In this document: positions 53,190 through 58,072 of the stretch, piece by piece
Layout of the letters: each line of letters begins with the position of its first letter
Numbering within the stretch: position 1 is the stretch's first letter
Origin: Deferribacteraceae bacterium V6Fe1
GTDB lineage: Bacteria > Chrysiogenota > Deferribacteres > Deferribacterales > Deferrivibrionaceae
Reading direction: 5' to 3'
Assembly: GCA_022813675.1 (NCBI GenBank)
Contig: CP063375.1
Location: 818,001 to 882,000, forward strand
Length of the DNA: 64,000 nt
Position numbers and translations under genes: made by a program
The notes under the pieces: generated by a model
Seen by the model: the letters and a program-made list of their open reading frames with translations, nothing else
What the model was told of the DNA's origin: nothing
The model's database searches: none

Positions 53190-53819
53190 TTGAAAAAATT
53201 AGTGTTTGACTTGGATAATACTCTGTATAACCCCTCTTCCGGTGTTTTGAATGAAATCGATAAGCGTATAAACGTATTTATGAAAGAAGTTTTAGAACTT
53301 GATGGTGTTGATGAATTAAGGATTTTTTATAGGAATACTTACGGCACTACTTTGCTTGGGCTTATGAGGCACTATAAGGTAAAACCTCAAGATTATCTGG
53401 ATTTTGTACATGATATAGATTATGCCAATCTGCTTGGCAAAGATTGTAAGCTAATAGAAGTCTTAAAAGATATAGACGGTGAGAAGATAATATTTACAAA
53501 CGGCTCTCGTTTGCATGCTATCAATACTCTTTCAAGTTTGGGGATATTGGAGCAGTTTGTAGAAATTTTTTCCATTGAAGACTACCTTGAATTTCCGAAA
53601 CCTTTTGAGCCTGCATATTTGAAACTTATTGATAAACTGAGTATTAACCCTAAAGAGTCAATTTATTTTGAAGATTCTCATAGAAATTTAAATGCATCAA
53701 AAAAGTTCGGGTTTAAAACCGCACTTGTGTGGAGTGAATCGGAAGACTTTGATTATTCATTTAATACTATCTATGATATAATTAGATTAAAATCATCAGG
53801 GGAAGTCAATGTCGGATAA
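53190..53819 (+). CDS. HAD-superfamily phosphatase, pyrimidine 5'-nucleotidase-like
   Basis: A 209-residue HAD hydrolase. Motif I is FDLDNTLYNP (residues 5-14), motif II FTNGSR, motif III around KPFEPAYLKL, and motif IV YFEDSHRNL. The DNTLY form with the R-x-H-x3-L segment is typical of the Sdt1/PpsE pyrimidine 5'-nucleotidase type. The start is TTG (53190) after AAGGGG. Its end overlaps the start of the next gene by 11 bases; it heads a long plus-strand operon. Confidence 0.87.
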   Translation: MKKLVFDLDNTLYNPSSGVLNEIDKRINVFMKEVLELDGVDELRIFYRNTYGTTLLGLMRHYKVKPQDYLDFVHDIDYANLLGKDCKLIEVLKDIDGEKIIFTNGSRLHAINTLSSLGILEQFVEIFSIEDYLEFPKPFEPAYLKLIDKLSINPKESIYFEDSHRNLNASKKFGFKTALVWSESEDFDYSFNTIYDIIRLKSSGEVNVG

Positions 53820-54372
53820 AAAATTAAATAAGGTATATGAGTTTTTTTCTCATAATGTCAGGACATTTACTACAGAAATAGTTACCACGATAGAATGCCT
53901 TAAGGTAGGCTTTGTAGAGACTGAAAGTGAAGAGTTTGATATTGTGTATGAGGCAGCTTACCTTTTGGATTTATATGATATAGGCCTTAATATAGTATTT
54001 AAATATTTAAGTGGTGATGAGAGTGTCAATAAGGAAAAAGTCAGCGTCAAGGAAATTACCGAAGAGTTTTTAAAATCAGTAAACGGATATATTACAAGTA
54101 GCGAGCTTAATATTGTAAAAGATTATCAAAATGATACAGTGCTAACTGATAATTTTATTTTTAAAAATATATACAAAATAATCCTTTATGAGTTTATAAA
54201 GCTTGCTTCAGGAGCTTTAAATATTTCTCTGGCGGAAAAGATAGAGATTAGCAGTGAAAAACTTAATGATAAATATCCTGAAATCTTCAGCTTATTTGGT
54301 CAAATTTTAAATAGCGTTGGTGTAAAATTTACTATGATAGATAACAAAATTATTTTGGAGCAGTTAAAATGA
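53809..54372 (+). CDS. HisKA/ChpT-like helical protein without ATPase motifs (putative phosphotransferase)
   Basis: A 187-residue protein I do not recognise with certainty. The N-terminus FFSHNVRTFTTEIVTTIECL resembles the H-box of histidine-kinase dimerisation domains (F-x-S-H-x-x-R-T). The rest could be a degenerate GHKL fold: FKNIYKIILYEFIKLAS sits where an N-box would be, and IDNKIILEQLK is a final strand. No G1/G2 ATP-binding boxes are visible. The gene overlaps both neighbours and directly precedes a lone receiver-domain gene. A ChpT-like histidine phosphotransferase or an inactive kinase is a reasonable inference, not an established call. Confidence 0.6.
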   Translation: MSDKKLNKVYEFFSHNVRTFTTEIVTTIECLKVGFVETESEEFDIVYEAAYLLDLYDIGLNIVFKYLSGDESVNKEKVSVKEITEEFLKSVNGYITSSELNIVKDYQNDTVLTDNFIFKNIYKIILYEFIKLASGALNISLAEKIEISSEKLNDKYPEIFSLFGQILNSVGVKFTMIDNKIILEQLK

Positions 54373-54731
54373 AGGTATTGATAGCAGATGATGAATTGCG
54401 ACTGAGAAAGGTCGTGTCATTGCATTTGAAAAAGAGTGGACTTGATGTGATAGAAGTTTCTAACGGGGCTCAGGCCCTTGAAAGGGCTAAAGAAGAATCT
54501 CCTGACGTGATAGTGCTTGATGTGATGATGCCGGAGCTAAATGGTCTTGAGACTTTGGAAAGGTTAAAGGGGGATAGTTCGTTAAAAGATATTCCTGTAA
54601 TTATGCTTTCAGCTAAGGCTACCCAAGATGATATAAAAAAAGGGGTAGAGCTTGGAGCAACTTCTTACCTCACAAAGCCTTTTAGCCCAAAGCAGCTGTT
54701 GGAGGAAATCTATAAATTTAAGAGTGAATAA
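54369..54731 (+). CDS. Single-domain response regulator (CheY-like)
   Basis: A 120-residue receiver domain. Acidic pocket DDE near residues 7-9, phospho-acceptor in VIVLDVMMPELNG (about residue 52), the conserved Ser/Thr in VIMLSAKA and the lysine in YLTKPFSP are all present. It has no output domain, so it probably passes phosphate or binds a partner. It overlaps the HisKA-like gene (ATGA) and shares the stop/start with the HDOD gene (TAATG). Confidence 0.93.
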   Translation: MKVLIADDELRLRKVVSLHLKKSGLDVIEVSNGAQALERAKEESPDVIVLDVMMPELNGLETLERLKGDSSLKDIPVIMLSAKATQDDIKKGVELGATSYLTKPFSPKQLLEEIYKFKSE

Positions 54732-55816
54732 TGTATCAAGTATATTTTGAAGGTGATAATCAAACTTTTTTGGATATTTACAGGCACCTTAATGATAAAA
54801 TTTCCTTTGTACAAGATGCCGGTACTGCTGATATAATTTTGCTTGAAGTAAAAGTTGCTGATGATATAAGGAAATTAGATGGTTTGAAAGATTCAAAGGT
54901 ATTTGTTATTCTTGATAAACCGGATAGAGAAATTATTCTCAAATTAAAACAGTATAAAATTGCAGGAATACTTTCTAAGCCGATAAAGCAAGATATATTG
55001 CTGGAAAAAATGCAGTCTTTTGGCATAAATAGCGACTCACAAGAGCTGCTTAAGTATGAAACCCTAAAAGCTAAAATTATTGCAAAGGCTACGAGTATAT
55101 CACCACTGCCAAAAGTGGCACGAGAGCTTATTGCTATGTCTTCAAAAGAGAATGTGGAAATTAACGATATTGTGGCAAAGATAAAAACTGATCAGGGTGT
55201 TGCTTCTAAAGTATTAAAGATTATTAATTCACCTTTTTATGGGATGAGACGAGAAATAACAAGCATAGAAAGGGCTACAATATATCTTGGTCTTGGGACG
55301 GTAAAAAATATTGCAATTTCTCTTTCTACAGCCGAGATGTTTAATAAAAACTTTTCGCTTTACGGGACAAGTGGTCAAAAGATGTGGGAGCATTCTTTTA
55401 TAACAGCAAGGCTTTGTGAAGAGATAGCAAATCTTTCAAAACAAAAGCTTGATAGCGATGCACTTTACTTGGCAGGGCTTTTTCATGACATAGGGAAGGC
55501 TATTTTGGTCGATTTTATTTATGAAAAAGTTACAGGAGCAGCGGACGAAAAAAGGCAATTGGGCCTAAACCATATTGATGTTGCTATGATTATTTTAAAA
55601 AAATGGAATATTGCCGAACAAATTATTTTCTGGGTCAAAAACCACCATGAATTTAGTCCCGAAATAAATTCTGCCGTATTGTATTTTGCAAATATCATTG
55701 CAAATGATCCTGAAATGATACGAGAGTGCAGCGAAGATATTTCCAAAATAATCGGAGTAGATAAAGAATTATTCGTAAAGAAAATAGAAGACTTTTTATC
55801 TGAGGAGGAAGGTTAA
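54731..55816 (+). CDS. HDOD-domain signalling protein with degenerate receiver-like N-terminus
   Basis: A 361-residue protein. Residues about 1-105 look like a receiver domain that has lost its acidic pocket (ADIILLEVKVADD in place of the Asp strand, GILSKPIKQDILL as the K-P end). Residues about 115-330 are an HDOD domain (ISPLPKVARELIAMSS; SKVLKIINSPFYGMRREITSIERATIYLG; AGLFHDIGKAILVD). HDOD proteins act in motility, c-di-GMP and stress signalling, mostly by protein contacts. Here an HD pair is retained, with NHHEFS later. It starts within the stop of the receiver gene and is followed by a PP2C phosphatase. Confidence 0.88.
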   Translation: MYQVYFEGDNQTFLDIYRHLNDKISFVQDAGTADIILLEVKVADDIRKLDGLKDSKVFVILDKPDREIILKLKQYKIAGILSKPIKQDILLEKMQSFGINSDSQELLKYETLKAKIIAKATSISPLPKVARELIAMSSKENVEINDIVAKIKTDQGVASKVLKIINSPFYGMRREITSIERATIYLGLGTVKNIAISLSTAEMFNKNFSLYGTSGQKMWEHSFITARLCEEIANLSKQKLDSDALYLAGLFHDIGKAILVDFIYEKVTGAADEKRQLGLNHIDVAMIILKKWNIAEQIIFWVKNHHEFSPEINSAVLYFANIIANDPEMIRECSEDISKIIGVDKELFVKKIEDFLSEEEG

Positions 55817-55818
55817 GA

Positions 55819-57369
55819 TTGAGCTATCAAAAATTGATTAAAGTGTTAGCAGCTTCTGTTGTAGATGAGTATTTCGAAAGTATTGCGGAATTATTGAATG
55901 AAATAGGTGCGGTAAGTTTTTGCATTTTAAAGTTTGAAAATAACTTGAGCGAGATTGTAGTAAGTAAAAACATAGAGGGTGATTTATTTTTTGATAGTTC
56001 AGACATACAGTTTGATAAGTCAGATTTTAAAGAAGATGTGGCTATAAACTATTTTGATAAACAACTAAAATTTGATTCGATTTTTTATATACACCATAAT
56101 TCTTCCCTTTTTGCAGCAATACTTATCAATATATCGAATAAAACAAATCTAAATATTCTGAAAGAGAATATTGAGAGAATCTCACAGAGGTATCTTGAAA
56201 TACTTATTAAGGATAAAAGGACAGAAGTATATGTAGAGTATCAAAAAAAGATAGATTTTGTAAAAGTTGTCAGCAATATTTTTAGGAATCTCTCTATTGA
56301 CGATTTACTTTCCACCGGGGTTGCCCTTTTCATGGATGTATTTTCTGCAGAGGCAAGTTGCGTGCTTTATGGTGATAAGTTTGTCCCGATAGGTGTCAAA
56401 GAGGATGACTTGGCGAAGATAACAGTCAAGGGGGAGCCTTTGTCAGAGATTATTTACAGGTTAGATAAATCGTATTTTTTCAAAGAAGATTTGTTGGCAG
56501 ATAAGTATAATGTAGAGAATATATTTTTTATTTATGAGCCTAAGTATAAGCTTAGAATAATCCTTTTTAATGTAAGTGTTGATTTCGCGCCGGATGTGGA
56601 GTTTTCTGAGATTATTTCCAGTATATTGACAATTGCCATGGAAAATGCATATGCACACGAAAAGATGGTGGAGATGAAAGTATATGAATCAGAAATGGAT
56701 AAGACGGCTGAAATATTAAATATGTTTGTAAACAATGAGATAGTATTTAATTCAGAGGTTAAGGCTTATGGAGTCAGCATTCCCGCAAAGGTAGCCGGCG
56801 GTGATTTCTTATATTTAACAGATAACGAAGATGAAATATTTTTGTGTATTGCAGATGTGTGTGGTAAGGGTTATGCGGCTGCAGTGTTAACTGTCGTAAT
56901 GAGCACAGTGGCAGAGCTTCTTAAAAATGTTAAACACTACGATTTAGTTGATTTGACAAACAAGTTGTCAGATTTTTTGTTATCTAAAAATCTTGGTGGC
57001 AGATTTATTACGCTGTTTTTTGGGGTAATAGATAAGAAAAGCTTGGAGTTAAAATATATATCATTAGGGCATGAGCCGGCATATATTGTAAGAGATGATG
57101 CTATAATAGAGCTTCACTCCTCTTTTTTGCCGATGGGGATTATGAAAGAAGAATACGGTATTGAGAAAATCAAATTATCTAATGAGGATTTGCTTTTTCT
57201 GTTTACTGACGGAATAATAGAGTATATTGACTATGAAAATTTAAAATACAGGTTAATGGAAATAAAAGATACACCCCTTGAAGATTTTGTAAAAAATCTT
57301 TATAAAGAGTGCGTAAAAGATAGAAAGCAGCAGCTTGATGATTTTACCTGTGCAGTCTTAAAAATCTGA
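55819..57369 (+). CDS. SpoIIE/PP2C-type serine phosphatase with sensor-like N-terminus
   Basis: A 516-residue protein. Residues 1 to about 290 are probably two GAF-like sensory regions joined by a helix (RTEVYVEYQKKIDFVKVVSN). A coiled segment (VEMKVYESEMDKTAEILN) leads to a C-terminal PP2C/SpoIIE domain with GVSIPAKVAGGDFLYL, IADVCGKGYAAAVLTVVMS, SLGHEPAYIV, PMGIM and LFTDGIIEYID, plus a final DDFTCAVLKI. Metal-binding aspartates are intact. Such phosphatases act on anti-sigma-antagonist proteins. The start is TTG (55819) after GGAGGAAGGTT. Together with the three genes before it, it forms one signalling module. Confidence 0.9.
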   Translation: MSYQKLIKVLAASVVDEYFESIAELLNEIGAVSFCILKFENNLSEIVVSKNIEGDLFFDSSDIQFDKSDFKEDVAINYFDKQLKFDSIFYIHHNSSLFAAILINISNKTNLNILKENIERISQRYLEILIKDKRTEVYVEYQKKIDFVKVVSNIFRNLSIDDLLSTGVALFMDVFSAEASCVLYGDKFVPIGVKEDDLAKITVKGEPLSEIIYRLDKSYFFKEDLLADKYNVENIFFIYEPKYKLRIILFNVSVDFAPDVEFSEIISSILTIAMENAYAHEKMVEMKVYESEMDKTAEILNMFVNNEIVFNSEVKAYGVSIPAKVAGGDFLYLTDNEDEIFLCIADVCGKGYAAAVLTVVMSTVAELLKNVKHYDLVDLTNKLSDFLLSKNLGGRFITLFFGVIDKKSLELKYISLGHEPAYIVRDDAIIELHSSFLPMGIMKEEYGIEKIKLSNEDLLFLFTDGIIEYIDYENLKYRLMEIKDTPLEDFVKNLYKECVKDRKQQLDDFTCAVLKI

Positions 57370-57391: not shown

Positions 57392-58072
57392 TTGGAAGAT
57401 AAATCAAAACAAATACAATCTATGTTTGACAATATTGCAGGCAAATATGATTTGCTGAATAGGTTGTTAAGCTTTAGGCGTGATGTAGCTTGGAGAAGAA
57501 AAGCTATCAAAAAGATGGAACTTATTGAAGATATGCTTGTTCTTGACCTTGCTTGCGGAACGGGTGATATGATTTTAGAGCTTAAAAATCAAGTAAGTGG
57601 TGTAAATGTTATTGGTGCCGATTTTAGTAAAAATATGCTTAGTATCGCCAAGCAAAAAGGGATTACAGAGCCTTTACTGGCTGCAGATGCCCATTTTTTG
57701 CCTTTTAAAGAGAATTCTTTTGATAGAATTATGATAGCTTTTGGTTTTAGAAATGTTGTAGACAAACAAAAAGGGCTTGAAAACCTGTATAGAGTTTTAA
57801 AGCCCGGTGGAAGACTTTGCATACTTGAATTTTCTCAACCTGAAGGTGTAATTTTTCCAAAGATTTACAGATTTTACTTTACGAAGCTCCTCCCTTTTAT
57901 CGGCGGGCTTATTTCGGGGAATAAGAATGCTTACTCATATCTGCCTGATTCCGTATATAAATTTCCTAAAAAGGATGTTTATAAAAAGATGATATTGAAT
58001 GCCGGGTTTAAAGAGGTAAAGTTTAACCCTATGACATTTGGCATATGCGATGCAACAATCTGCTATAAATAA
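57392..58072 (+). CDS. ubiE: Demethylmenaquinone/2-methoxy-6-polyprenyl-benzoquinol methyltransferase
   Basis: A 226-residue UbiE/MenG methyltransferase, which adds the ring methyl group in mena- or ubiquinone synthesis. Family signatures are present: FDNIAGKYDLLNRLLSFRRD at the N-terminus, SAM motif VLDLACGTGDM, FGFRNVVDKQKGLENLYRVLKPGG and the YSYLPDSVYKFP segment. It starts at TTG 57392 with AAGGAGC. The nth gene begins within its last codons. An anaerobe-type genome would use it for menaquinone; no other men genes are in the window. Confidence 0.94.
   Translation: MEDKSKQIQSMFDNIAGKYDLLNRLLSFRRDVAWRRKAIKKMELIEDMLVLDLACGTGDMILELKNQVSGVNVIGADFSKNMLSIAKQKGITEPLLAADAHFLPFKENSFDRIMIAFGFRNVVDKQKGLENLYRVLKPGGRLCILEFSQPEGVIFPKIYRFYFTKLLPFIGGLISGNKNAYSYLPDSVYKFPKKDVYKKMILNAGFKEVKFNPMTFGICDATICYK

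Follow-up and report, generated by a model that had tools for sequence, protein, structure and literature searches.

A four-gene signalling block of the Deferribacterales that may couple a putative histidine kinase relic and a receiver to a separate PP2C phosphatase

Four adjacent signalling genes and their conservation

In the genome of Deferribacteraceae bacterium V6Fe1 (GenBank assembly GCA_022813675.1) we analysed 64,000 nucleotides of contig CP063375.1 (positions 818,001 to 882,000 of the forward strand; hereafter the window, whose own numbering is used unless genome positions are stated), and within it a block of four signalling genes that all read on the + strand. The first open reading frame (ORF; 53809–54372, +) encodes a 187-residue protein that we term histidine kinase (HK)-like; the second (54369–54731, +) encodes a stand-alone receiver of 120 residues (Pfam Response_reg, E = 5.7e-31); the third (54731–55816, +) encodes an HDOD protein of 361 residues (Pfam HDOD, E = 1.7e-42); and the fourth (55819–57369, +) encodes a 516-residue sensor phosphatase in which two GAF-like regions and helical linkers are predicted to accompany a SpoIIE-type PP2C domain (Pfam SpoIIE, E = 6.6e-31). 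The HK-like and receiver genes overlap by 4 bases and the receiver and HDOD genes by 1 base, and a gap of 2 bases separates the HDOD and PP2C genes. An earlier interpretation of the letters alone (the sequence-only reading) had described four overlapping or nearly touching genes, among them a lone receiver, an HDOD protein and a SpoIIE-type phosphatase, and the ORFs and Pfam matches bear this out.

Using a 30-row profile of the HK-like protein, we found an orthologue in 34 of the 50 phylum genomes; each of the 34 belongs to the order Deferribacterales, which has 45 members in this set, and none of the 5 phylum genomes outside the order gave a match; a single-sequence search placed the protein in 30 of 39 genomes, its own included. 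In all 29 relative loci the receiver gene adjoins the HK-like gene, either overlapping it or lying no more than 2 bases away. The HDOD gene follows in 28 of these loci (in two of them past one small extra gene), and the PP2C gene comes next in 27, as does menG; the loci that lack PP2C and menG (L036, L058) run into contig ends. In the window the downstream neighbour is this menG/ubiE methyltransferase gene (57392–58072, +; Ubie_methyltran, E = 6.5e-63), which lies outside the signalling path and which directly follows PP2C in 27 of the 29 loci, the remaining two being stopped by a contig edge; genome G023 (L170) is an exception. Upstream, a HAD-family pyrimidine 5'-nucleotidase-like gene (53190–53819, +; TIGR01993, 154.5 bits with a cut-off of 142.9) overlaps the HK-like gene, and a HAD-family gene is the same-strand neighbour in 9 of the 29 loci.

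Since it recurs across the order, the four-gene block is more than a chance association, and we are close to certain that the module is real and functional; the sequence-only reading had staked its module on synteny elsewhere, which this recurrence supplies. It could be argued that the four signalling genes merely share a housekeeping operon with menG and form no single pathway. The neighbours are housekeeping genes, and the reduced forms described below show separate loss of parts, both of which fit co-transcription alone, but the four genes stay adjacent while the genes that flank them vary, and the HK-like gene never occurs without the receiver (0 of 29 loci; 0 of 34 genomes), and we regard this explanation as quite improbable.

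When a GTDB-based genome collection was scanned with an alignment of the PP2C N terminus, 27 loci were confirmed, all 27 of them titled Deferribacterales or its taxa. That scan used exact peptide patterns, which miss relatives (several genomes of the order are absent from its list), and therefore absence of the module outside the phylum is not established by it. No relative of the module was found in viral contigs, and no match in plasmids by tblastn. Ratios of nonsynonymous to synonymous substitution (dN/dS) relative to the nearest relative were 0.06 for the HK-like gene, 0.14 for the receiver, 0.41 for HDOD and 0.49 for PP2C, each from few changes, the HK-like value resting on 4 synonymous changes and 1 nonsynonymous change. 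With the next relative the HK-like ratio was 0.16 at nearly saturated synonymous sites, and ratios for the other three genes were not computable. Promoter-like sites were about as frequent as in shuffled sequence (34, compared with 29.8 in shuffles, s.d. 5.5), so that we propose no promoter, and a terminator-like site on the + strand within the HDOD gene (55476) was judged to be chance.

The HK-like protein and its receiver

The AlphaFold model of the HK-like protein (pLDDT 92.9, pTM 0.90) shows a two-helix hairpin (residues 3–32 and 44–67) followed by an alpha/beta domain. A Foldseek search with this model gave 133 PDB matches at E <= 0.001, and the 50 matches listed are all histidine kinases, phytochromes or their relatives, including AdeS, HK853, DivL and ChpT (4fmt_B, E = 3.3e-6). 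With VIA-align, DivL was superimposed on the model at Z = 14.3 (184 residues, 3.3 Å) and HK853 (6rgy_B) at Z = 13.1 (183 residues, 3.6 Å); the HK853 alignment starts at model residue 1 and chain residue 246, so that His15 would fall on His260 of HK853 if no gap intervenes. Sequence profiles point the same way: hhalign aligned the HK-like family with a set of six kinases from the same order (Pfam confirms five of these) at 96.6% (E = 4.9e-10, 171 columns, H-boxes aligned), compared with 0.04% for an unrelated control. In addition, secondary matches of the HK-like profile in other genomes are large proteins, and the five that were tested are all HisKA/HATPase_c kinases. Scattered weak Pfam matches among HK-like proteins (for example DAAF9_N in 6 of 30 members, best value 0.00095) were judged to be chance.

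The ATP-binding motifs have been lost from this family. The G boxes present in all six kinases of the order have no counterpart, and the position of the N-box Asn is occupied by Glu128, which is Glu in 33 of 33 orthologues. As judged from the predicted model, the HK-like protein has the DHp and CA-like fold of HisKA kinases without an ATP site, and it is probably an ATP-independent HisKA relic that acts on the adjacent receiver. The sequence-only reading had seen an H-box-like helix without ATP motifs, which family alignment and model both confirm, and had called for a comparison with HisKA and ChpT; likeness to HisKA is found by hhalign, and ChpT is among the structural matches.

The receiver itself keeps its catalytic residues, with D7, D8, D51 and K103 (acidic pocket, phospho-Asp and Lys) invariant in 30 sequences. 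Equally invariant in these sequences is the stretch E9–K14 at the start of helix 1, a helix by which receivers contact kinases. The best PDB match of the receiver is RR468 of Thermotoga maritima (E = 1.4e-36), which outscores the next clearly different receiver by about 15 bits and is the partner of HK853, the sole kinase that the HK-like profile matches, weakly, in PDB sequences. Taken together, the two matches suggest that the HK-like/receiver pair descends from, or resembles, a pair of the HK853/RR468 kind. The likeness extends to the DHp and CA fold, predicted over the whole HK-like protein; unlike HK853, the HK-like protein is a separate protein of 187 residues and has no ATP motifs, no acidic residue after the His and no membrane or sensor part.

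Residues of the H-box relic (H15-N16-V17-R18-T19; 53851–53865, +; family pattern SH[N/H]xRT), located by orthologue alignment, bear on what this protein might do to the receiver. Across the 33 distinct orthologues from the relative loci, His15 is kept in 31; position H+1 is N in 23 and H in 10, and acidic in none; H+4 is T in 31 and N in 2; and R18, D54, D57 and E128 occur in all 33. At H+1 each of the six kinases of the order carries E or D, and at H+4 each carries T. Two orthologues, both of family f4, have R or F in place of His15; in these, H+4 is N and a His stands one place later, and the two proteins share 47.6% identity, as compared with 47–56% for HK-like proteins of other genus pairs. 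According to Willett and Kirby (PMC3510030), the acidic H+1 residue is needed for kinase and not for phosphatase activity in CrdS, HK853 and two other kinases, and the T/N residue is needed for phosphatase and not for kinase activity in the same four; the His of CrdS only enhances its phosphatase activity, the half-life of the phospho-receiver being 2.6 min with H371A, 0.7 min with the wild type and 53.5 min without the protein. With the kinase residue lost and the phosphatase residue kept, dephosphorylation of the receiver would be favoured over phosphotransfer, and we give about even odds that the net action of the HK-like protein is mainly that of an ATP-independent receiver phosphatase. 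The sequence-only reading had proposed a phosphotransfer-to-phosphatase switch; its general idea of a phospho-signal leading to a phosphatase fits, whereas phosphotransfer is not what these H-box residues, including the lost His in f4, favour.

Conservation of His15 in 31 orthologues does leave room for phosphotransfer, and hence for a phosphorelay of the ChpT/Spo0B type, in which a remote hybrid kinase would pass phosphate to His15 and from there to the receiver, which would then control HDOD and PP2C. ChpT, the Caulobacter histidine phosphotransferase, is itself one of the structural matches; it too is devoid of autokinase activity, and its ATP-binding-like domain is atypical (PMC3433190); the HK-like protein resembles it in being a soluble DHp protein with an ATP-free CA-like domain, of which no autokinase activity is expected. 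However, HK853 and DivL fit the HK-like model better than ChpT does, the invariant T/N at H+4 is a phosphatase residue, and the His has been replaced in 2 of the 33 orthologues while the protein remained conserved. Unlike ChpT, the HK-like protein also belongs to an operon with a PP2C gene. We consider such a relay possible, at rather modest odds. The same substitutions, together with the loss of the ATP site and the invariant Glu128 in the N-box, would suit a scaffold or titrating pseudokinase that merely binds and holds the receiver without chemistry, and one of the top structural matches is DivL, whose record title names it a tyrosine kinase; but the conservation of H15, R18 and T19 is much stricter than mere binding seems to demand, which makes a pure scaffold unlikely.

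The HDOD protein, the phosphatase and natural reduced forms

The HDOD protein carries its HDOD domain at residues 124–307 (55100–55651, +; PF08668, E = 1.7e-42), behind an N-terminal region (54731–55045, +) that is pseudo-receiver-like: hhalign matched it to REC at 58.8% (E = 9.4e-5; control 0.08%), and Glu39 stands opposite Asp51 of the receiver. The dead receiver-like domain that the sequence-only reading had placed here is in this way moderately supported. Receivers that lack the Asp are often joined to HDOD domains, according to PMC4395418, which calls the working role of HDOD domains currently unknown; the protein described here is alike in architecture and unlike those proteins in sharing a fixed operon with a phosphatase and a genuine receiver.

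In the phosphatase, Pfam SpoIIE (PF07228) spans residues 337–515, and D329, D346, D464, D507 and D508, which we take to be the metal-binding aspartates, are invariant in 23 sequences. The model of this protein (pLDDT 85.0) has a pTM of 0.50, because of which the placement of its domains is uncertain; its Foldseek matches include SpoIIE, RssB of P. aeruginosa and phytochromes. Judging by secondary structure and by the matches to phytochromes, we read the N-terminal part as two GAF-like regions joined by long helices to the PP2C domain, and the sensor regions claimed by the sequence-only reading reappear in this predicted form. Receiver input, SpoIIE-type PP2C output, GAF-type sensors and helical linkers are familiar from RssB/HsbR of Pseudomonas and from RsbU, RsbP and RsbZ. 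HsbR is a receiver-PP2C regulator; here, unlike in RssB/HsbR, receiver and PP2C are separate proteins, an HDOD protein stands between them and an HK-like protein is added. In PMC12143880, helical linkers are described as activating such phosphatases via dimerisation, and RsbZ is described as having tandem GAF domains, a GAF-linker-PP2C layout like the one predicted here. By analogy, control through linker dimerisation is plausible for this phosphatase.

Three natural reduced forms of the module occur. All four genomes of genus g14 (G025, G027, G036, G045; 93–98% complete) have HDOD and PP2C, the PP2C gene of G036 being cut by a contig end, and they have no HK-like match by profile and no receiver orthologue at E <= 1e-32. 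Their HDOD and PP2C genes adjoin a HIT gene, which precedes the module in many relatives, and their receivers are fewer overall (12–16 candidates as compared with 20–39 in genus g11). In family f5, a diverged receiver gene and an HDOD gene lie 8 bases apart in G006 and have neither an HK-like nor a PP2C gene next to them; in G013 both lie at contig ends, on separate contigs. Finally, all four genes are absent from G004 and G011 (99% complete), in which the flanking HAD and menG genes are still close together; G018, of the same genus, carries all four. We did not count as clean losses G023 (which has HDOD and PP2C without menG following, the HDOD gene being at a contig start), G013, or G049 and G012 (86–88% complete). 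HDOD persists more than any other member of the module; it is retained in every partial form and is therefore likely to be a hub or adaptor between receiver and phosphatase; that it serves specifically as an adaptor to PP2C seems to us somewhat favoured.

Two other genes accompany the module in family f8. A small protein of 118–122 residues (L049:8980–9339, L050:9659–10015, L202:7649–8017, L203:7651–8019), whose start is signal-like and which has segments rich in Gly/Ala, is encoded between the receiver and HDOD genes in this family and beside menG in the module-less G004 and G011. A 206-residue protein encoded between the HAD and HK-like genes (L049:10243–10863, L050:10915–11535) has, by eye, a J-domain-like start and TPR-like repeats.

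A candidate pathway and its partners

The observations above raise the possibility of an order-wide operon in which separate proteins link two-component signalling with a Ser/Thr phosphatase, an explanation to which, taken whole, we assign a probability of roughly 40%. A remote histidine kinase (the cell has many) or a small phosphodonor would phosphorylate the receiver on Asp51, and the HK-like protein would bind the receiver in the manner of HK853 with RR468, its main effect being to dephosphorylate it. The HDOD protein would read the state of the receiver through its pseudo-receiver, its HDOD domain or both, and would set the activity of the GAF-like/PP2C phosphatase. The phosphatase in turn would dephosphorylate a substrate encoded elsewhere, most likely an anti-anti-sigma protein of the STAS type, although whether the substrate is a STAS protein is for us an evenly balanced question. 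That a kinase deprived of its kinase half became the dedicated, ATP-independent phosphatase of a single receiver, one that controls PP2C in trans via HDOD, is put forward tentatively.

Several observations weigh against this explanation. No Pfam family fits the HK-like protein (0 of 30 members match HisKA or HATPase_c), and the one kinase match of its profile in PDB sequences, HK853, has an E of only 0.1, for which reason we did not use it alone as evidence. His15 is kept in more orthologues than a pure phosphatase should need. Family f5 retains receiver and HDOD without the HK-like protein, so that the receiver can work without it. That HDOD contacts REC and PP2C is deduced solely from gene order and loss patterns, and no STAS or RsbW-like gene is tied to PP2C by co-occurrence in the 50 phylum genomes.

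Such a four-gene module was not found described in the openly licensed literature searched, which is limited evidence, and the block seems to bring together familiar parts in a combination not described before. In our judgement, receiver control of separate PP2C phosphatases has been little studied, and the full module and its three natural reduced forms make both this control and the role of HDOD testable. If the explanation is right, the HK-like protein would be another case of a histidine kinase relic turned receiver phosphatase, the block would be a fixed junction of two-component and partner-switch signalling in Deferribacterales, and HDOD domains would gain a defined job, within a module that shares its string of genes with menaquinone synthesis.

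Candidate partners lie elsewhere in the genome. The window (818–882 kb) contains none of the genome's 6 HATPase_c_2, 6 STAS or 47 HATPase_c matches, the nearest HATPase_c matches being at 749 and 957 kb, in agreement with the sequence-only reading, which had noted no kinase or anti-sigma partner nearby. A STAS-RsbW-like pair is found at 1348 kb, a PP2C of 1086 residues at 1046 kb, a PP2C and STAS pair at 1415 kb and a 269-residue HATPase_c_2 protein at 2020 kb; other STAS proteins are encoded at 1119 and 2180 kb. Across the phylum, all 50 genomes have HATPase_c_2 matches and 48 of the 50 have STAS matches.

The 269-residue protein (G000:C1:2019546-2020352; L178:5544-6353, -) carries a HATPase_c_2 domain at its C terminus, its N-terminal region is conserved and possibly receiver-like, and its gene adjoins one for a 271-residue protein that by eye resembles a metallo-beta-lactamase-fold protein. 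It has matches in 46 of the 50 phylum genomes, with or without the module, G004 and G011 being among those that lack it. The 1415-kb locus (G000:C1:1415085-1416446; L176) is a second phosphatase-STAS cluster, in which a PP2C with PAS is accompanied by a 106-residue STAS protein and a 473-residue STAS-containing protein, and it adjoins what by eye is a CheR-like gene. In a genome of family f10 (G041:C1:632933-634635), a large PP2C, a STAS protein and an RsbW-like protein are encoded in a row, and a classic partner switch therefore exists in the phylum.

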